From contig SMSO01000007.1 in NCBI GenBank assembly GCA_004764695.1, positions 1,681,270-1,745,269 on the forward strand: DNA of 64,000 nucleotides. The letters are read 5' to 3'. Below, one piece after another: positions 1 to 10,425 of this stretch (position 1 is its first letter; every line of letters starts with the position of its first letter). Source of the stretch: Schizochytrium sp. TIO01 (lineage: Eukaryota; Sar; Bigyra; Thraustochytrida; Thraustochytriidae). Under the pieces are notes generated by a model. That model was not told the DNA's origin. It saw only the letters and a program-made list of their open reading frames with translations, and did no database searches. The position numbers and the translations under genes are program-made.

Positions 1-2451
1 AATAACCTTACCGCGTGTTTCCTCTGGATTCATTTCAAGCATCTCTTGAACTTGCTCACGGGTAGCAAAAGCAAGCAAGTGCGCATGGCGCTCTAGAGCA
101 TCAAAGAATGCCCACGTTGACACAGGAAGATTGTGTGGACGATTCAGGCGTTCAGCTTGTTCGCTAAATTTATGATGCAGATAGCGCATGATGTCACGCG
201 AATTAGAGGTCCATTTGTTTTCAAAGAACACAGCAGGTGTTCGCGCAGACGGAACCGCATCTGTAAACCACGCAGGTTTGTTGTCCCAATCTATGTCAAT
301 GATTTGGTACGGGATACCTGCTTCCATGATGAACATGGTGACCACCCGAGAATATGGGCATAACCGAACTAAATAATTCTTTACTCGCACACAGCCATAA
401 CAAATGTAGACAACATTAGCAAGAGGCTCAGCTGGCAGAGAAGTTTGCACTAAGGCTCGTGATGTGTCATTGCGAAGCTCTTCCTTGCGTTTGCGCCGCC
501 GTCTCCTAGAGTGAGAGGCGACACCACTCCAAAGCTTATCTCGAGCTTGTTCTGAGTCACTTGCCTCGGACTCAGAGGGGATATCAGAATCCCCGCTTGC
601 ATCAGCAAGCGCCTCCATTAATTCTTCATGGGTAATACCTACAGCAGCCTGCACAGCGTCGAATTTGTCAAAGTTGGCGCGAATGCCTTTCCCGCCAGCC
701 CGCCTTTCCATCATATCGCCAAAAAGAATACCTCCAAGTTCTAGGTCTATTCCTTTATATTGTGTTGTACAAACAAGCATATCATTATAGACAGAGTCAT
801 GCCCCACAAAGCTGACACTTAAAACAATATTCGCCATTTCATCTGGATCAAGTAAAAATCTTCGCAATGGTGACTTTTGATCAATTTCATGAATAATAGT
901 AGCCACAGCCGTAATGGTTGGGGGGAAGCTTGCTTGTAAATTCTCGTAGCTCACAAAATGTTCTCCCTCCTCGGTGTCGTGAAATCGTAATAACGCTACT
1001 GCCACACGGGTCTCGTAAACAAGGTTGACACGTCGATTACCTACACGAATTAACAGTGTAGGCTTCCCATCACGGGTTGTAACGAGAGCCTTCTTGCTAA
1101 AAACGATGTCTGGTTTAGGAATCTGAAATTTTGATACAACAACAGACAAAACAATCACATTGAGCATAAGACCAGTAAACTGTTGAGCGCAGGCAAGTGT
1201 ATAACAGCCGTACGAACTCGGGAGACAAGGCCCATAGCCAAGTGTTAGTACATTGCTTGTTGCATAGACAGCAGCAATTCCCAGAGTGCCTTGTAGGAAC
1301 GTATCCATTCCTGATTGGCACTCAATACTATTTGCAATAGGCCAAGTGAGTAGTGACCAAAAAAAGCAAGTAATTACATACGAGAGCAAAGACAAGAAAA
1401 ATACAAAGGCCCAACTCCAGTCCAAGAGTACATAATACCAGTTTTTGGCCTCATACCACTTTGACGACCCTGTCCCATGCAGAGCAGATCGTTTCTTGCG
1501 TTTTCCTGATTCAATTTGATCTGGCGCATACCGGCGCTGGGTGTATGAATGTTTATTCTTACGTCGCAGGCGTTCGACACGAAATCGTCGCCATTCGCTC
1601 AAGGAGAGCCCCATGTGATGAGTCTGAAGTCTAGGCATGCGACACTCTTTGCATACATCTTCATCGTTGTGCCGGTGGAAGTGAGAACCAAACCTGGTCT
1701 TATTCCTGCGCCTTAAGCCGGTTTCCTCGTTATGAGTACTCATTTCACTTGCAGATCTAGGTAGGCTGCCCATGGAATTCCTTCGAGTGTTCGGTCCCAG
1801 TGGAAGTTCGCCACTCTCGACAATCATGGCATTCTCCTTGGGATTTTCCGGCTCCTCATCGCTTGATGGTGTGTTACCCATCTGTACTTCATCTGGCGTG
1901 TACACGCACGTTTGCAATGCCGAAATGGGTTCATTTGCGTGCTCACCCCCAGAAGTTGCATTTGACTTCGATCCTGGCATCGTTCCAGACTCAACATCGT
2001 GCTCTATATTCGCCTCGTTGGAAGAGTTTGCCAACGTTGATGTCGAACTCGATGTTCTGCGATTTCCTACACTAGCACTGTGCCTCGTTCGACAAGCATC
2101 GTCATGATTCCTGATGTCATGGATACTCATAACATCTAAATCCTCAACAGCCAGACTTCCATTGCTATTGTCATCGGTGACGTTGATATTATTATTGTCC
2201 TTGTTGTTGCTGCTGCTGATGTTCATGGCACGGTTCATGGTACTGGGGGTGAACCTGTTGGTCAAGCGGTGTGAAGGGAGCGCACTACTTTCACTAGATT
2301 GTCCGCTTGCAGCATCAGAGTGCGCGATGGAGCGAGCTCCCGACGCCTCCTGTGAGGAGCCCGTGCCCATGAGACGGCAGCTGCAGCGATGTTGGAGCAG
2401 ACCAAAGCGACACTGATGAGGGACTTTCTCGTTGCGATCTCCAAGTGACAT
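1..2451 (-). CDS. Inward-rectifier K+ channel (Kir) fused to a CLIC/DHAR-like GST domain; 3' end beyond left edge
   Basis: One uninterrupted minus-strand frame of 817 codons, open at the window edge. The start is the first ATG after an in-frame stop at 2509-2511. Residues 1 to about 330 look disordered (Asn/Ser-rich, later basic). Residues about 338-370 hold a Trp-rich slide helix and TM1. A pore loop carries the filter TLGYG (residues 403-407; animal Kirs usually have TIGYG), followed by two Cys as in Kirs, then TM2 (about 414-440). The cytoplasmic Kir fold follows, with recognisable KPTLLIRVGNRRVNLVYE, EGEHF, IIHEIDQKSPL and CTTQYKGIDLELGGILFGD segments. After an acidic Ser linker and an Arg/Lys cluster (about 647-657) comes a thioredoxin-like GST N-domain (about 676-770). 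It has CPYS at 698-701 and NKPAWFTDAVPSARTPAVFF, close to dehydroascorbate reductase and CLIC proteins, then the start of a helical C-domain. Expected role: plasma or endomembrane K+ channel. A redox or glutathione link through the Cys-type GST is my inference. Confidence 0.92.
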   Translation of the reverse strand, partial: MSLGDRNEKVPHQCRFGLLQHRCSCRLMGTGSSQEASGARSIAHSDAASGQSSESSALPSHRLTNRFTPSTMNRAMNISSSNNKDNNNINVTDDNSNGSLAVEDLDVMSIHDIRNHDDACRTRHSASVGNRRTSSSTSTLANSSNEANIEHDVESGTMPGSKSNATSGGEHANEPISALQTCVYTPDEVQMGNTPSSDEEPENPKENAMIVESGELPLGPNTRRNSMGSLPRSASEMSTHNEETGLRRRNKTRFGSHFHRHNDEDVCKECRMPRLQTHHMGLSLSEWRRFRVERLRRKNKHSYTQRRYAPDQIESGKRKKRSALHGTGSSKWYEAKNWYYVLLDWSWAFVFFLSLLSYVITCFFWSLLTWPIANSIECQSGMDTFLQGTLGIAAVYATSNVLTLGYGPCLPSSYGCYTLACAQQFTGLMLNVIVLSVVVSKFQIPKPDIVFSKKALVTTRDGKPTLLIRVGNRRVNLVYETRVAVALLRFHDTEEGEHFVSYENLQASFPPTITAVATIIHEIDQKSPLRRFLLDPDEMANIVLSVSFVGHDSVYNDMLVCTTQYKGIDLELGGILFGDMMERRAGGKGIRANFDKFDAVQAAVGITHEELMEALADASGDSDIPSESEASDSEQARDKLWSGVASHSRRRRRKRKEELRNDTSRALVQTSLPAEPLANVVYICYGCVRVKNYLVRLCPYSRVVTMFIMEAGIPYQIIDIDWDNKPAWFTDAVPSARTPAVFFENKWTSNSRDIMRYLHHKFSEQAERLNRPHNLPVSTWAFFDALERHAHLLAFATREQVQEMLEMNPEETRGKVI

Positions 2452-2738: not shown

Positions 2739-5700
2739 TTATATCTTGTCCTCGAGCTCCTTGATGAGGCAAACCATAATGTTTTCGTTGTCGTATTTCC
2801 AGTACGGTAACTCAAGGTTCCTGCGAATGCAGATTGTTGCAAATGCTTCTGGCGTGATTTTATCATCGTCGTCGTCGTCCTCATGGTCGTTTACTTCGAT
2901 CCAGAGATCCATGACCTGCGCCTCGTTAAGGGGTGGCTGGGGCTGGGCTGTACTGAGAAGTTTTTGAAATTCTTCGAATGAAAGGACACCATCTCCATTG
3001 ACATCAAAGGTACGAAAAAGCTGCATGATCATTGTTCGGTCAAGTTCAATTTTGCTCAAGAAGACCTGTGTAACTTTACTAAGAAACAGATCTAGATTTA
3101 CAACCTTGATGTCACTTGTGGTAGCCTTGTTCACCTCAGATTCAGGTACGCTGTTTGCATCAATCCATTTCAATATCTTTTGTCGAAATGCACCAGGCAT
3201 CGCCCAATATCTCTGTGGAACACCCGAGCCATCATCAACTTCGTCTACAATATCCGAACTTGCTTTGAGGCCATCACCATCAACCAGTCGGAAAACCGTG
3301 CGAATCGCACGGATTGCACTTGTACTTTGAACCACAGTTTGGTTTGTTCCATACTCTAGAGCTTTTGCAATAAGATCCGAGCGGGGGAAGACGGATGCGA
3401 AAACACTCATTATGGCATCGCAGAGCGTGGGAGTATAATGTTCAGGATCAATAACGCCAACAAGCATGCCAAAGAGCTGAATTCGAAGTGAATGTTCGTA
3501 CTCATCTCGAATTGCTTGCACGATTCCGTAAAGGTATTCCTCGGCAAGCTTTTTAAGTCCATATTTTTGAGTGAAGTAATGCAAAATAGTTTTCGCGAGA
3601 GCATGTGACTTGCGCCCTGACTCCCGAAGAGTTTTATCACTTTGCACTTTCTTTTGGTAAACTTCACCAATAATAACATCTTCGAGCTGAGAGATCTCGA
3701 TTTTCCGTGCGCGACGGTGCTTTGGTGGTTTGTGAAGATACTTCTCCCAGGGTAGCGATTCGTTGAGCAAAGGGGTAATGAACTTTGCTTCAATGCGGCG
3801 CAATGTTACCATAACAGCTAGTTCGCCACCTTCTTTAAGAAGAGATTTGTTGCGAATACTTACTGTTGCAAATGTAGTATTCTCCAGCTTGGAGCGTTTT
3901 GATTTTTGTTTCTGTGGCTTTTGCATCGAAGTTTCCGACGTATTTGGCGATTTCAAATCCTTATCTTGGTCTTCACCATCCTTTTCAGCTTTCTTTGAGC
4001 TATCACCGTGTACTTCATTTGCATCAAGATCATCACAATTATCTCCTTCGGCAGCCTTCGTTTCGGCAGTTTCCGTTTCGAGCTCAGACTCTTTGCCTAA
4101 GGCCTTCCCATCTTTGGTTCGTTCGTCTTCATCGTCTTCATCGTCTTCGTCGTCTTCATCATCTTCGTCGTCTTCATCGTCTTCAAGGTTTTCGTCATCT
4201 TCATAGTTTTCGTCATCTACAGATTTCTTAATTGCCTTGATAATCAGTCGCCTAGCATTGTCACCCGGATGCTCATACATTGGTATTGAGAGATCGGTTT
4301 GCGAATATTTGTTTGCAGTACGATCTGATGATTCTGCCTCTTCCCATTCAATTGTTGGCGAGTGTCCTGGTTTGTTGGCAGTGCCTTGTACATCATTAAC
4401 GATTGTTAGCAAGCGTTTAGAAGACATGGTAGTTACAACATTTGGTGCAATCATATCAAGCTCATCCGCGTCAAGAAGTTGCATAAACTCTAAGACAAGA
4501 TCAACCCGATCTCGGCTTGACTTGGTTTGCCGAAGAACCTCTCGAATAAAGTTGGTTGCTCGACCATCAGCTGCACTTTCTAATAATGATGCAACAAGAC
4601 TACGCTGCCCAGCTTCATCAAGCTCCATAATCATGGCTTTAAGATGTGGCTCATTTGCTACTTTAGTGAGCCAATTTGCCATGACTTGAGACTGTTGAAT
4701 CCCATCTAATTTTTGTACGTGATTTTCAATTCGATCTTGCAGCGCAAGGGATGACCGTCTTTTATTCGATCCGCCAACAACAACAACCTTTCCATATTCA
4801 TTACGTTCCGGCTCCTGCTCATCAAATTCACTGACTTCATCGACTGCGTCAGGGTACACATCAGTTTCTTCATCTTCTACATCTTCCCCTTCACCAGAAC
4901 TCTTCGTGGCACGAACCCTCTCGAATAGGGTCTGACGATTGTCTCGGGGTCCACCAGCACTGCTTTCACTAGCATTGACATTTTCATGGGACTGCCATGA
5001 ATTGCGTCTACTGCCATCTTCCACAGAGTAGTCTGACCAAGATCGTTCAAGACGCTGCCTGCGTGCGAAAGCTACTTTGCGCATATGCTGAAGGAGGCGT
5101 TCCAATGCGTCTGTGACTCCAGAAGGCTTAAGACGGCTGATTTCAAGCCTCAGAAGTTGGAATTCCTGATCCTCCTCATCACACACTGCAAGCGCCTGCA
5201 GAATGTCATTACTATGGTCAAGTGCTTGCTGAAGCTCGACTATCTTGCTATCTCTTAATTGAACTTCACGATGAAGCATTTCATTTGCTTGTTCCAAAGC
5301 CGCGGATAAACTTGGGTCAGTATCACGCTGATACACTCTGCGTTCGTCCTCATAGCGCTCTAACAAAAAATACAGAACCCTATGTTCAGCTCTCCATAAT
5401 CGCAACAGTTTTGCACTGCGCTGCCAGCAAGCATCCGTTACCTTTTGTGGTACAAGATCTATGCTGCCAACCATTGACTGTACAGACACGTCTTGCACGT
5501 CTTTTGCGGGAATTATAAACTTTTGTAGAAAGTTTAAATCTTCCCGCAAGAACTGCAAGCAAGCATCAAATTCAGTACCGCATACTTCAATACATTCTTT
5601 GCCAATTTGCACCGGGTCAGTGTGTGCTTCCGACAATTCTCTTAGCCATTGATCCACACGTGGAGTTTGTATTGAAGATGAATATCTCGAGTTGCTTGGG

Positions 5701-6521
5701 TGTAAGCTGCTTCTTGTTTTCTCTTCAAGCTCGTCTAATAGCTCGTGAGTGTCGTTCTCATGTAAATACGTCCATTCATCACCTTTCGATTCTAGTGTAA
5801 CATTATGTTGATCCTCTTCATCGCGAGTTCCATTTGAGTGACGGGTTGCACCAACCACTGGGGATTGTGGCAATGGATCGAGGTGGTTTTGCTGTCGTCT
5901 CCTTCGGAGTTTAATTTTTTTGTGATACAATTTTTCAAGTCTACAATCAATGTGCGAAAGACGCTCGAGCTCATCGCTGGTAACAGGAGAGCTATAGCGG
6001 AGCATGTTTTCCGTACATAACTCACTCGCATCAACTGTTTGCAATACATGAGAAGTATAATGCCCAACCTTGCCTGTATTTGTTGTTGCAGACTTTGGCG
6101 ATCCTAGCTCCTCAAGCTCTTGGCGGGCAGATCTTCTCAACAGCTCAGCTTTACTAATCGGAAGATCAAGTGCTCGCTGCCCACTGCGTTTTATTGGGCT
6201 TAAGCTTCTTGATAAGCGTTGCTTTCCATGAGAATCTTCAGCTGTAGTAGTATTTATAGCGGGGCTTCGACTGCGTGTTTTCCATTGAGGTTGTGGTTTG
6301 AGCTGTACTTTATCTGTAGCTCCTCTATTTGGCGAATGTAAGATTGGATAAATGTCATCGTCATCGTCATCATCTATTCCATCATCTTTTCCGCCATCTC
6401 CTGCACCTTGAAGCTCGGTCAAATCATCACTTTCGTCAACATCGGATTTAGACGACTTCTTTAGCCTGTTCTGAGAGGGTGTCATATTGAAGGACATGCC
6501 TTCGAGCATAGTATGCTGCAT
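2739..6521 (-). CDS. Large acidic coiled-coil protein with C-terminal EF-hand
   Basis: A 1260-residue frame with ATG at 6521; other in-frame ATGs follow at 6509, 6497 and 6485, so the exact start is open. The N-terminal third is polar and Ser-rich. A helical/coiled-coil stretch lies around residues 400-440. A nearly pure Asp/Glu run (about 769-799, encoded by GAY/GAR repeats at 4125-4215) is followed by a Lys/Glu-rich linker. A conserved-looking helical module then runs from about 920 to 1060 (KIEISQLEDVIIGEVYQKK, KYGLKKLAEEYLYG). One canonical EF-hand loop, DVNGDGVLSFEE (about 1173-1184), has all calcium ligands; the following DHEDDDDDDKITPE region looks like a degenerate second hand. I do not recognise a named family. 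The helical module plus EF-hand resembles large ciliary or cytoskeletal EF-hand proteins of protists, which is only an impression. Ca2+ binding is likely; the rest of the function is unknown. Confidence 0.85.
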   Translation of the reverse strand: MQHTMLEGMSFNMTPSQNRLKKSSKSDVDESDDLTELQGAGDGGKDDGIDDDDDDDIYPILHSPNRGATDKVQLKPQPQWKTRSRSPAINTTTAEDSHGKQRLSRSLSPIKRSGQRALDLPISKAELLRRSARQELEELGSPKSATTNTGKVGHYTSHVLQTVDASELCTENMLRYSSPVTSDELERLSHIDCRLEKLYHKKIKLRRRRQQNHLDPLPQSPVVGATRHSNGTRDEEDQHNVTLESKGDEWTYLHENDTHELLDELEEKTRSSLHPSNSRYSSSIQTPRVDQWLRELSEAHTDPVQIGKECIEVCGTEFDACLQFLREDLNFLQKFIIPAKDVQDVSVQSMVGSIDLVPQKVTDACWQRSAKLLRLWRAEHRVLYFLLERYEDERRVYQRDTDPSLSAALEQANEMLHREVQLRDSKIVELQQALDHSNDILQALAVCDEEDQEFQLLRLEISRLKPSGVTDALERLLQHMRKVAFARRQRLERSWSDYSVEDGSRRNSWQSHENVNASESSAGGPRDNRQTLFERVRATKSSGEGEDVEDEETDVYPDAVDEVSEFDEQEPERNEYGKVVVVGGSNKRRSSLALQDRIENHVQKLDGIQQSQVMANWLTKVANEPHLKAMIMELDEAGQRSLVASLLESAADGRATNFIREVLRQTKSSRDRVDLVLEFMQLLDADELDMIAPNVVTTMSSKRLLTIVNDVQGTANKPGHSPTIEWEEAESSDRTANKYSQTDLSIPMYEHPGDNARRLIIKAIKKSVDDENYEDDENLEDDEDDEDDEDDEDDEDDEDERTKDGKALGKESELETETAETKAAEGDNCDDLDANEVHGDSSKKAEKDGEDQDKDLKSPNTSETSMQKPQKQKSKRSKLENTTFATVSIRNKSLLKEGGELAVMVTLRRIEAKFITPLLNESLPWEKYLHKPPKHRRARKIEISQLEDVIIGEVYQKKVQSDKTLRESGRKSHALAKTILHYFTQKYGLKKLAEEYLYGIVQAIRDEYEHSLRIQLFGMLVGVIDPEHYTPTLCDAIMSVFASVFPRSDLIAKALEYGTNQTVVQSTSAIRAIRTVFRLVDGDGLKASSDIVDEVDDGSGVPQRYWAMPGAFRQKILKWIDANSVPESEVNKATTSDIKVVNLDLFLSKVTQVFLSKIELDRTMIMQLFRTFDVNGDGVLSFEEFQKLLSTAQPQPPLNEAQVMDLWIEVNDHEDDDDDDKITPEAFATICIRRNLELPYWKYDNENIMVCLIKELEDKI

Positions 6522-7722
6522 GCTTCTAAATTGCCTCGATTCAACTGGAGTGGATGACGTCGCTCTGAGAGAGACGTGGCCAGAGGATACCCCCTGCCCT
6601 CCACGCCGGCTCCGTATGTCGTCAGGTGGGCAAGGTAATCTAACAACTTGTTTGCCTACTGACCTCCGTACTGACTGACTCCCTGAATATTGTACGCATG
6701 CACTTTTGTAGCAAAATGTAAATCAGATCGATAAAAGTAAAACTAATCCTCTTAAATGGTATTTAATGTCCAATAGTTCTGCCAGTTACATACACACCTC
6801 TGAAAGCAAACCCGTGATACTGAAGGCTTTCTAACATGTTTCATTTTAAATACTCTTTGATATCTTCTCTATTTTTAAAGTTCTCGACTCTTGGTTTGCG
6901 GCGCACACTAATAAAAAAACAAATAAAAAAACAACAGCGAAGCAGCTGCATGCGTCAATTCCAAACATTCAACTACGAAACTTAAAATGCTTCGAACCAT
7001 TCCTGCATGGTATACCACATTCTAACTTCTATAAGTCAAGTGCCAGATATTTGCAGAAAAGATACTACAATCCATGAGTACTCATACTTTGTCTATTTTC
7101 CTACCTCGAACCTTTCACCTTGCAGGCGCTATCAAGCCTTAACGGATCCTGGGAGTACACACAGTGTGGTTATTAAAAGGGACTTATAGGATTAAAACAA
7201 GAGACTTTAAAAAAAGGCCGTGTCGAAGCTGACTCGACTACTACTACATCGGCCCGAGCGTCGGCAAGACCCTCTCGCGGGCTCTCGGAACTCCGCTTGG
7301 TCGGGGGAGGGGATTCGCAAGGTGTCTGGTCGCTTGAGGAGAGCTTTCGCCAGCCTCCTTCGGCTTCCCTCACCCAATCTGCGGCTCATACCTCGCCTGA
7401 TCGCGGGATTTGGGGTCTCCGAAGTCCTTCAGGGAGTGCACATCATCATCCCCATTAGAACCTAGTACCTGCTTTGTTACAATACACTATATTATATCGC
7501 AGCTGCGCATTGCATCTGTGCGCTGCTACACGTCACGTCAAGTTCCAGTGGCTTGAGCCTTTGATACTGCTCGTATTGAAATCAAATATATACATGCAAA
7601 TTGATTGATTGATATTAGGTTCTTTCTGCATTGGTGCATTTGCCTTCAGCGAAAGCTCAACTTCGCTCGCATCTATTCGGGTACAAGTTTTTCAAAGTGG
7701 TTCCCAACAACCTGTTGTGATA
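6522..7722. other. Divergent intergenic region between EF-hand and EDEM genes
   Basis: About 1.2 kb shared by the two divergent 5' ends. A CRE-like TGACGTC lies at 6555-6561, 34 bp upstream of the EF-hand ATG. The middle (about 6700-7200) is A/T-rich without repeats. A GC-rich patch lies at about 7222-7400. A small GATT repeat sits at 7601-7612. An in-frame open stretch at 7609-7722 precedes the EDEM ATG but has no ATG of its own (it would start at TTG), so I treat it as 5' leader. No gene is supported here. Confidence 0.4.
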
Positions 7723-10425
7723 ATGCTGCTAACTTTTTTCTACGTTGCTGCTCTGGCTTTGCTAGGGTGTGTCGAAGGTGCTGGGACCTTGGATGTGGAC
7801 ATGATGGTTGATCTCCGAAATCAGGCTGGCCGCATGCTGGACCACGCTTTTCAAAGCTACATGGACAACGCTTACCCGTGGGACGAACTCAAACCCCTAA
7901 GTTGCTCTGGCCGGCGCTGGGACCGACGGGAGAGGGGCACCATTGATGATACTCTCGGTGGCTTCTCCCTCACATTGATTGACTCTCTGGATTCTCTCGC
8001 TGTTATGGGTCGACACCGCCAATTTTACGAATCTGTGGATCTTATTCGCAACGAGATTTCTTTTGATCGTGATGTCACTATATCAGTCTTTGAGACTACT
8101 ATTCGTGTCCTTGGTGGCCTGCTCTCGGCGCACGTCTTACTTGCTGATAAAGTTGTGCCGGAGGCTCCGGAATCATGGGCTTATGATGACGAGCTACTGC
8201 ATCTTGCCGAAGACCTTGCCGAGAGACTCTTGCCAGCTTTTGAAACGGAGACAGGTATTCCATATCATCGCGTCAACTTACGGCATGGCGTGGAGCGCAG
8301 TGAGTCCCGCAAGACCTGTACCGCTGCTGCCGGGACTTTGCTCGTGGAGTTTGGCGTGCTATCTCGCCTCACTGGAAGGCGTGTGTTCGAAGATAAGGCC
8401 CGTACTGCTTTGTTCGCTTTGTGGGAGCGTCGTAACCCCTCTACAGGCCTTGTGGGCAATACCATCAATGTCCAAACTGGCCAGTGGCTTCTGTCCAAGA
8501 CCGGAAGCGGCCCTGGAGTAGATAGCTTCTTCGAGTACCTCCAAAAGGCGAGTGTTCTTTTGGACCATCCCGCAAGCCCCTTCTACCGTGAAAATGGTGA
8601 ATTCATAAAGGTTTCAGATGTCCCAGACAAGGCGACCCCGTCACACGACGGAGACATTACGGACAGAACACATGCCTCCTCTCACGGCGCCAGCTCAACG
8701 GGGCGCGCAGCCCATCACACGAACAATGAGAAGGCTGATAATTATAGGGCTGAAAGTACTAGCAGTAGCAGCAGTCGAAGCAGCAGCAGCAGCAGCAGCA
8801 GCAGAAGTAGTACTAGTAGTAGTAGCAGCAGCAGCAGCGGCGGCGGCGGCGAAGGAGCCTCCGCACCCCAAGCTCTAGGAAGCGCCTTTGAGGAGGCCGT
8901 GCGTAAGGTGGATGAGCACCTGTCTTTCGGCCCATGGCACATCGAGGTCGATATGAATGTTGGACGCGACCAGCCTTTGCAATACAGCGTGTCTGCTCTG
9001 CAAGCCTTCTGGCCTGGCCTTCTTGCCTCGACGGGGCGGCTCGAGGCTGCTTCGGAAAGCTTTGACGCCTTTTACAGCCTGTGGCGGAACAATCGAGCCA
9101 TGCCAGAGGAAGTGGACCTCTTGACTCGGTCCACCACCTACTACGGCAAAGGATATTATCTCCGCCCAGAGTTGGCGGAGAGCGCAATGGTTCTGTACCA
9201 CAAGACTAGGGAGGCAAAGTATGTACGTGCTGCAGCTCGGATCATGCGAGACATTGAGACGCGCTGTCGCGTCGCGTGTGGCTATGCCACCCTCCGCAGC
9301 GTGCATGCAAAGCAGGACGGCTTCAACCGCGAAGACCGAATGGATAGCTACTTCATCGCCGAAACCCTCAAGTACCTGTACTTGACATTCGACATGGCAG
9401 CCCGCAACTCCACACAAATTTCCACGCTCGGCGAATCGCCCATCTTCAGCACCGAAGGGCACCTGTTTTTCCTGAAAAACGCAAGCGTTTTCGACCACCT
9501 CTCCAGCAGCCTGTCCGCAAGCCCTCTGGACGACCCGCTCTCGCCCAAGCCTGCGCTCAATTCGAGTGTCCCGGGGGCAACTTGTCCGGCGCACCAAGGA
9601 GGTCCATCGACGACAACGACTACGCCATCTCGAGACTCGCAGCGCCCGGAGTTCATCACTGCCCGCGTAAACGTGGAAAGTGTGCTCACTCCTCATATTA
9701 GCGCGCCAGTCCAGGTGCCAGCCGGCCACAGCAATGCCAGGCGATCTGACTTCGTCTTAGCTCCGGCAGCCTTCGGCCGTGCCGTTGCCGGGGACTTGGA
9801 GGCACACGTAATCCTGGTCAAGGCCGAGCCTCTGGACTCCTGCGACACGATCAGGAACTCGGAGGAGATTCTTCGTGCTCAGAAGCTCGCGAGCGACCTT
9901 CGGCTGAGCGACGGACGCTCCCTGGCTGTGGCGGTTGTCGCCGCCCGTGGGGGGTGTAGCTTTGTGCACAAGGTTGCAAATATAGCCAACGCGACCTTGG
10001 GGAGAGTGGAGACGGTGATCATCGTGAACCGTCGCGCGGATGGCGATGAGCTGCACACGATGGTGGACGATGGCACTCTTCATCAAGAAGGGCCGCTGCT
10101 GGGCTACGTGCGGGGGCTCATGGCTCCGTACTCGTTCATGAGCTTCTTCAAGCAGATTGGCTTCCCCATTATGCCAGGGCTTCCTCACGCCCGGGCTTAT
10201 CACCAATCGCACTATGCCGTCGCGCACCTAGCCGGTGCACGGCGACACCTTGACTCCAAGCAATCGCCTCGTGGCGCAGCTTATTCGGACAGGTCCACGC
10301 CTGGTCAGCGCGCGCCTTCGCAAGCGCCCTTCGTGCAGGACTTTCTCATTGGCGAAGTTGCGAAGCTTTTCGAGCATCTTTTTGCGTCCAGTCCAGCGAC
10401 CGGTGCCGTGAAGGAGGACCTCTGA
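7723..10425 (+). CDS. EDEM3-like ER mannosidase-family protein (GH47 + PA domain, KEDL tail)
   Basis: A 900-residue protein. The chosen ATG is the first in the frame and begins a clear signal peptide (MLLTFFYVAALALLG). GH47/EDEM landmarks appear in order: GTIDDTLGGFSLTLIDSLDS (from residue 72), SVFETTIRVLGGLLSAH (about 121-137), TAAAGTLLVEFG (about 200), GVDSFFEYLQKA (about 265-276) and GYYLRPELAES (about 477-487). A Ser-rich insert of roughly 90 residues, including an AGC-repeat poly-Ser run (8755-8850), interrupts the GH47 domain just before the WHIEVDMNVG segment. A protease-associated domain follows near residues 685-800 (ARGGCSFVHKVANI). The protein ends in KEDL, a KDEL variant, as expected of an ER-lumen protein; human EDEM3 likewise combines GH47, PA and a KDEL end. 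Predicted role: trimming or recognising mannose glycans on misfolded glycoproteins for ER-associated degradation. Confidence 0.96.
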   Translation: MLLTFFYVAALALLGCVEGAGTLDVDMMVDLRNQAGRMLDHAFQSYMDNAYPWDELKPLSCSGRRWDRRERGTIDDTLGGFSLTLIDSLDSLAVMGRHRQFYESVDLIRNEISFDRDVTISVFETTIRVLGGLLSAHVLLADKVVPEAPESWAYDDELLHLAEDLAERLLPAFETETGIPYHRVNLRHGVERSESRKTCTAAAGTLLVEFGVLSRLTGRRVFEDKARTALFALWERRNPSTGLVGNTINVQTGQWLLSKTGSGPGVDSFFEYLQKASVLLDHPASPFYRENGEFIKVSDVPDKATPSHDGDITDRTHASSHGASSTGRAAHHTNNEKADNYRAESTSSSSSRSSSSSSSSRSSTSSSSSSSSGGGGEGASAPQALGSAFEEAVRKVDEHLSFGPWHIEVDMNVGRDQPLQYSVSALQAFWPGLLASTGRLEAASESFDAFYSLWRNNRAMPEEVDLLTRSTTYYGKGYYLRPELAESAMVLYHKTREAKYVRAAARIMRDIETRCRVACGYATLRSVHAKQDGFNREDRMDSYFIAETLKYLYLTFDMAARNSTQISTLGESPIFSTEGHLFFLKNASVFDHLSSSLSASPLDDPLSPKPALNSSVPGATCPAHQGGPSTTTTTPSRDSQRPEFITARVNVESVLTPHISAPVQVPAGHSNARRSDFVLAPAAFGRAVAGDLEAHVILVKAEPLDSCDTIRNSEEILRAQKLASDLRLSDGRSLAVAVVAARGGCSFVHKVANIANATLGRVETVIIVNRRADGDELHTMVDDGTLHQEGPLLGYVRGLMAPYSFMSFFKQIGFPIMPGLPHARAYHQSHYAVAHLAGARRHLDSKQSPRGAAYSDRSTPGQRAPSQAPFVQDFLIGEVAKLFEHLFASSPATGAVKEDL
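8755..8850 (+). repeat. AGC/AGT trinucleotide repeat inside EDEM coding sequence
   Basis: Imperfect AGC/AGT/AGA units encode a poly-Ser run ending in Gly codons. It lies in frame within an insertion in the GH47 domain, so length changes would alter only the linker. Confidence 0.9.

Follow-up and report, generated by a model that had tools for sequence, protein, structure and literature searches.

This locus raises the question of whether a K+ channel and a glutathione transferase (GST) can be one protein and, if so, what their union might do. It lies at the left edge of a 64,000-nucleotide stretch (the window) of DNA from Schizochytrium sp. TIO01 (contig SMSO01000007.1, here C6; C6:1681270-1745269), in which an earlier note had recognised, in one uninterrupted frame, a full inward-rectifier K+ (Kir) channel followed by a GST tail. 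The Kir-GST frame occupies the minus strand and is open through all 817 codons from window position 2451 to 1; it goes on past the left edge, within the same contig, to position 2392 of the left flank (L003:2392). The whole gene (C6:1678891-1683720, minus strand) encodes a protein of 1609 residues (P0001) in a single unbroken frame, which measures 1628 codons from stop to stop. When the whole genome (64.06 Mb, 37 contigs) was searched with P0001, three candidates were scored and a single locus matched, over residues 1-1609 at 100% with zero internal stops; this was the gene itself, and no paralogue with the Kir-GST layout was found genome-wide.

The recognised parts of P0001 are, in order, a pore of two transmembrane (TM) segments containing TLGYG, the Kir cytoplasmic domain IRK_C and three GST N-domains of the cysteine type; GST_C matched as well, in one case close to the C-terminus. 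The domain search that the earlier note proposed for the translation returned both IRK_C and GST. In the window part, Pfam placed IRK_C at residues 449-602 (E = 7.9e-15, 55.4 bits, cut-off 22.5), and on the full protein the score was 54.1 bits (E = 2e-14, same cut-off). In a phmmer search of the PDB, KirBac3.1-type chains matched residues 336-573 (2x6a, 1.4e-17; 1xl4, named KirBac3.1, 1.9e-17), and hhalign paired P0001 with one of the genome's ordinary Kir proteins (96%, E = 2e-9). Mean Kyte-Doolittle hydropathy exceeded 1.6 in exactly two segments, 341-373 and 419-445, with TLGYG between them. A Kir-type channel is supported by IRK_C, the filter motif, two TM segments and the KirBac3.1-type alignment.

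The Cys-type GST N-domain with CPYS was likewise recovered. Pfam reported GST_N_2 at residues 698-760 (1.8e-12) and GST_N_3 (3.5e-9), DHAR2 matched residues 695-766 by phmmer against the PDB (8.9e-8), and a Thr-Pro pair follows at 738-739. The idea of a single GST tail did not survive, since there are three modules, two of which lie left of the window together with an extra GST_C-like region (residues about 1404-1534). On full P0001, GST_N_2 matched three stretches (85.9 bits). Fold searches matched the GST fold for GST3 and for the N-domain of GST1 (GST1N). A helical C-domain is clear for GST3 and plausible for GST2; none was recognised right after GST1.

The fusion, which the earlier note suggested looking for in related genomes, is kept in Hondaea fermentalgiana, a thraustochytrid stramenopile, and in three further relatives. 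A search with residues 330-1560 against 5.8 billion proteins gave five matches from 7989 scored candidates (about 8000 were scored in each of three protein searches). One, P0002 (904 residues, 99%), is a fragment, nearly identical in sequence, encoded on a 3.5-kb contig. The Hondaea protein P0003 (1524 residues, 59% over 100%) was deposited as 'Inward rectifier potassium channel 2', and P0004 (1462 residues, 47%), P0005 (42%) and P0006 (38%) all come from JGI. These four relatives (38-59% identity) align over the whole Kir-GST region, and the layout is kept in all five long sequences. IRK_C exceeded its cut-off in each relative, and each has GST_N, with GST_N_2 reported over 3, 2, 2 and 2 stretches; the module that Pfam left unscored is visible in the alignment through its Cys-Pro. 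A profile search listed no protein beyond the five matches. With fragment 300-817, the candidates scored included no Kir joined to just one GST; the only matches were P0002 and P0007, a 290-residue Kir-like protein (26% identity). Searches with two short peptide patterns from the Kir part, which detect close relatives only, matched 45 stretches in prokaryotic genomes and 49 in viral contigs, and tblastn confirmed none of them.

Conservation is unevenly spread along the protein. Between P0001 and P0003/P0004/P0005/P0006, identity was 84/73/66/56% in IRK_C, 73/62/63/61% from TM1 through the pore to TM2, 69/62/57/57% in GST3N, 66/53/45/42% in GST1N and 57/43/33/35% in GST2N, falling to 44/37/23/21% in the linker and 46/27/20/18% in the stretch after GST1. 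The N-terminal part of about 290 residues has 1 invariant column in 290. The Cys-Pro pairs at C698, C879 and C1179 are invariant in all five proteins. The nine invariant cysteines (of 30 in residues 291-1609) are C378, C409, C561, C698, C879, C1179, C1340, C1463 and C1608; C561 is the sole one in the cytoplasmic domain of the channel, and C378 and C409 form a pair flanking the filter. Identification of this pair with the extracellular disulfide of Kir2 was dropped, as the alignment places C378 off the first cysteine of Kir2.2. The C-terminal LFCI, which we take to resemble a class II PDZ ligand, is invariant in P0001 and P0003-P0006, and in the preceding residues 1541-1598 only 1 of 58 columns is invariant. 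The fusion is real and conserved, as the unbroken frame, the four whole-length relatives and the shared Cys-Pro pairs, C561 and LFCI demonstrate.

The positions at which DHAR contacts reduced glutathione (GSH), namely Lys47 and Asp72-Ser73, were compared across the modules, with residue roles taken from PMC5307357 and PMC4726096. GST3 keeps Cys, Lys (K1206), Pro and E1230-S1231, each in five of five proteins. The site is largely kept in GST1 (K725 in 4/5; Asn followed by Ser or Thr in 4/5), and GST2 has Cys-Pro in 5/5 and, in 4/5, Pro at a position resembling that of the cis-Pro. The CLIC/DHAR-like label of the earlier note stands in so far as DHARs and CLICs are the nearest solved GST structures. 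The modules are neither proper CLICs, for the NCBIfam model TIGR00862 gave P0001 29.3, P0003 39.3 and P0006 35.7 bits against a cut-off of 358.95, nor proper DHARs, for the Asp of the Asp19-Cys20 ascorbate site is missing. According to PMC5307357, Asp19 serves the ascorbate site of DHAR, and its equivalent is absent from a lambda GST that has DHAR activity.

The reading preferred here, with chances that look evenly poised, is that the gene encodes a chanzyme: a tetrameric K+ channel of Kir type whose subunits each carry, at the C-terminus, three DHAR/CLIC/omega-like GST modules of the cysteine type, and in which glutathione redox state would gate the pore. Twelve GST N-domains would thereby lie below one tetramer. 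GST1 and GST3 would bind glutathione via C698 and C1179 and work either as sensors or, in the manner of a monothiol glutaredoxin, as (de)glutathionylases. A rise in cytosolic oxidized glutathione (GSSG) relative to GSH, or in peroxide, would alter pore gating through the mixed-disulfide state of the modules; alternatively, gating may change as an invariant thiol of the channel, with C561 as candidate, gains or loses glutathione. K+ conductance and membrane potential would then track redox state, and LFCI may dock the channel to a partner. The built-in redox sensor or enzyme of the earlier note is a putative role that fits the invariant active-site cysteines.

Rectification is predicted to be weak, because the residue at the TM2 rectification position is neutral. 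N431 aligns with an Asp of the same genome's ordinary Kir (L001) and, in a weak alignment (E 0.3-0.4), of Kir2.2, and across the five proteins the position reads N, N, N, S, S; the Kir-GST family thus differs from both in having Asn or Ser there and lacks the acidic residue of strong rectifiers. That residue marks strong rectifiers only, not the Kir family as a whole.

Precedents for glutathione control of K+ channels exist. In animals and plants, Kir and further K+ channels are reported to be under redox control by glutathione, and the modifying chemistry there is external to the channel protein. The S-glutathionylation of Kir4.1-Kir5.1 has reportedly been the subject of a study cited in PMC11631806. 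Inhibition of AKT1 by S-glutathionylation and glutaredoxin-like activity in CLICs have also been described. In Kir6.1-type KATP channels, S-glutathionylation of Cys176 inhibits, and dithiothreitol and glutaredoxin rescue (PMC11631806). A channel with its own GST modules could reverse, catalyse or sense glutathionylation in place.

A weak point in the recognition of the channel is its TM domain: the Pfam IRK transmembrane model (PF01007) scored 6.4 bits on P0001 (cut-off 22.7), a search of the genome with this model left the Kir-GST locus unlisted, and in the four relatives it was reported in P0006 only, at 17.5 bits, P0003 passing Ion_trans_2 instead (23.9 bits, cut-off 22.5). Several observations weigh against the chanzyme reading. 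The Kir part of the predicted structure was poor (for the whole model, mean predicted local distance difference test score 46.7, predicted template-modelling score 0.30) and therefore yields no docking geometry; a fold search with the Kir model gave GST-fold chains only among the matches listed, which, with the Kir part at low confidence, is no argument against a Kir fold. In P0004, TLSSSV replaces TLGYG between conserved flanks and all GST active-site cysteines are retained, so at least one lineage manages without a canonical K+ filter. GST2 is without the Lys, residue 906 being C, P, M, P, L across the five proteins, and an acidic-Ser pair could not be made out in it. In none of the three modules of any of the five proteins is the catalytic Cys preceded by the Asp of DHAR, the equivalent of Asp19 being L/M/V/Y in GST1, S/N/C/F/A in GST2 and V/A in GST3. 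Cysteine invariance (30% in residues 291-1609) is unexceptional beside Trp (55%), Phe (34%), Pro (31%), Gly (30%) and all residues (about 21%); what appears telling is that all three GST active-site cysteines are among the invariant ones, rather than cysteines as a class. C561 is a candidate target by virtue of its conservation and may be structural.

The GST modules might instead be catalytically silent binding domains that gate or localise the channel through a ligand or protein other than glutathione. The GSH-site positions lost in GST2, the DHAR Asp19 position not retained and the brevity and low conservation of the sequence following GST1 are what such domains would show, and the conserved LFCI suggests docking. 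Against this, each module has retained its Cys-Pro unchanged in every one of the five proteins even though GST2N has drifted to 33-57% identity, and GST3 keeps its Cys, Lys, Pro and Glu-Ser throughout; silent modules are considered unlikely.

It is unlikely that the Kir part is mainly a membrane anchor and tetramerisation scaffold for a membrane-bound, clustered GST with an antioxidant or thiol-transferase role and no control of K+ flux. Such an arrangement would suit P0004, which keeps IRK_C and three GST Cys-Pro pairs beside TLSSSV, and unusual filters are known from NirBac, Kir-type channels that are functionally non-selective (PMC4607889). By this analogy P0004 may be non-selective or silent as a channel, and the retention of the GST array without a canonical filter in at least this lineage favours an enzyme or scaffold role there. 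The filter, however, is TLGYG, TLGYG, TLSSS, TLGYG and TLGFG across the five proteins, GYG or GFG being retained in four; in each of the four comparisons the TM1-pore-TM2 part equals or exceeds the GST N-domains in conservation, and IRK_C, a gating domain that a pure anchor would not need, is the most conserved large domain in three of the four relatives. An artefact in which two adjacent genes are read as one, through assembly error, gene-model fusion or a chance frame, is very improbable and was rejected, given 1628 unbroken codons, a single genomic locus and an unchanged domain order, with a short linker, in all four whole-length relatives, Hondaea included.

A variant of the chanzyme reading concerns how the array arose. 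The N-domains of GST1 and GST3 are identical at 36 of 80 positions (z 38.7, 300 shuffles), GST2N being more distant from them (z 17.7 and 16.1), and the terminal GST_C resembles the GST3 C-domain (34/110, z 10.0) more than that of GST2 (z 5.0). In the shuffle test the stretch after GST1 showed no likeness to the GST_C domains (z 1.7, 0.7 and -0.1), although the same test misses GST2C against GST3C (z 1.7) and so overlooks drifted C-domains; a drifted C-domain after GST1 is possible. One reading is that a DHAR-like GST was duplicated and one copy split, its C-half now lying near the protein end. Since GST1N is nearest GST3N, the terminal GST_C is nearest the GST3 C-domain and the stretch after GST1 matches no GST_C, a split GST may be proposed, in which the GST1 N-half would pair with the terminal GST_C around two whole GSTs and the modules would form a clamp on the cytoplasmic domain, opening or shutting with glutathione redox state. 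This self-regulating chanzyme, with its own (de)glutathionylase beneath the pore, is regarded as unlikely.

Among known systems, P0001 is like Kir and KirBac channels (Kir2.2, Kir4.1, Kir5.1, KirBac3.1) in having two TM helices around a TxGYG loop followed by the IRK_C beta-sandwich, and unlike them in its C-terminal GST array of roughly 1000 residues, its poorly conserved N-terminal residues and its sub-threshold Pfam TM score. It differs from plant DHAR1/2 in that its modules lack Asp before the catalytic Cys, number three and sit within a membrane channel. The top Foldseek match for the tail model was Leishmania TDR1 (4ags, trimeric GST; 5.9e-11, 562 columns against a 445-residue chain). 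The TDR1 chain presumably consists of two GST units, and the match therefore fits several GST units in one chain; identity is 13%, and TDR1 is without a channel. VIA structure matches of the tail model covered mostly GST3 (453-695 of the model), with GST2 and the terminal GST_C barely covered. An enzyme fold is also combined with a cation channel in TRPM7, in which a kinase is joined to the channel, and in Kv-beta, an aldo-keto reductase that is a channel partner; to our knowledge neither is a Kir channel or carries a GST. CLICs are described as GST-fold proteins that themselves enter the membrane (PMC4726096), whereas Kir-GST has a separate Kir pore.

Among the matches listed from 5.39 million open papers, with subscription papers largely outside this set, there was no account of a Kir-GST fusion or of thraustochytrid K+ channels. 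The parts are known and their combination appears new, the deposited Hondaea protein being named only for its Kir part. A fold that handles glutathione seems to have become attached to a channel in triplicate and to have been maintained within a protist family. If the chanzyme reading is true, no Kir chanzyme known to us precedes this one, which would be a natural sensor coupling glutathione redox state to membrane potential and a ready tool for probing how S-glutathionylation gates Kir pores. In P0004, which lacks a GYG filter, one could see by natural experiment whether the enzyme part acts without K+ conduction.

Features of the Kir-GST gene, with positions in the window
Feature	Residues	Position	Strand	Basis or remark
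Kir-GST gene, 5' half	1-817	1..2451	minus	open reading frame, ATG at 2451
Pre-TM segment	291-335	1447..1581	minus	conserved stretch RKKRSALHGTGSSKWYEA; 17/45 columns invariant in five sequences
TM1	341-373	1333..1431	minus	hydropathy; profile alignment with ordinary Kir of same genome
K+ selectivity filter TLGYG	403-407	1231..1245	minus	motif
TM2	419-445	1117..1197	minus	hydropathy; alignment with L001 Kir
Kir cytoplasmic domain IRK_C	449-602	646..1107	minus	Pfam
Invariant cytosolic cysteine	C561	769-771	minus	five-protein alignment
Linker	603-675	427..645	minus	poorly conserved, 2/73 columns invariant
GST1, thioredoxin-like N-domain	681-770	142..411	minus	Pfam, phmmer, fold search
GST1 active-site CPYS		349-360 (C698 at 358-360)	minus	motif
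Stretch after GST1	771-817 (of 771-862)	1..141	minus	short, poorly conserved
GST2 (C879), GST3 (C1179), GST_C-like region (about 1404-1534), tail ending DLLFCI	818-1609	left of window, L003	minus	

An alternative start, Met28, lies at window position 2370 (codon 2368-2370) and begins MGTGSS, and the N-terminus of the Hondaea protein is MGASSS. Both resemble what we take to be N-myristoylation signals, and because both fit this motif there are hints that Met28 is the true start. P0004 starts differently (MQAQQ), and P0005 and P0006, which start without Met, may be truncated.

Elsewhere in the genome three other IRK_C genes were found (counts here being lower bounds), on C30 (L001), C34 (L025) and C35 (L024). 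Their open frames, as far as those frames extend, contained no GST domain (Pfam, E ≤ 0.001), so the fusion is confined to one Kir lineage here. Their filters are TIGYA (L001), TIGYG (L025) and TVGYT (L024), and in all three the IRK_C match comes in two pieces separated by an insert of variable length; in the insert of L025 a C2H2 zinc finger was matched weakly (20.9 bits, cut-off 27). GST_N_2 matched 19 times in the genome, twice on the Kir-GST gene, and when frames from 11 of the other 17 loci were compared by BLAST only L012 matched (26%, 2e-4).

Downstream of the Kir-GST gene are two adjacent plus-strand frames, alike by eye, of which L003:1417-2265 gave a sub-threshold Glyoxalase_4 match and L003:59-826 no Pfam match. 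Directly upstream, a minus-strand frame of 1327 residues (window 2742-6722) has an EF-hand pair near its C-terminus. A plus-strand frame of 938 residues (window 7609-10422) matches glycosyl hydrolase family 47 (3.2e-102).
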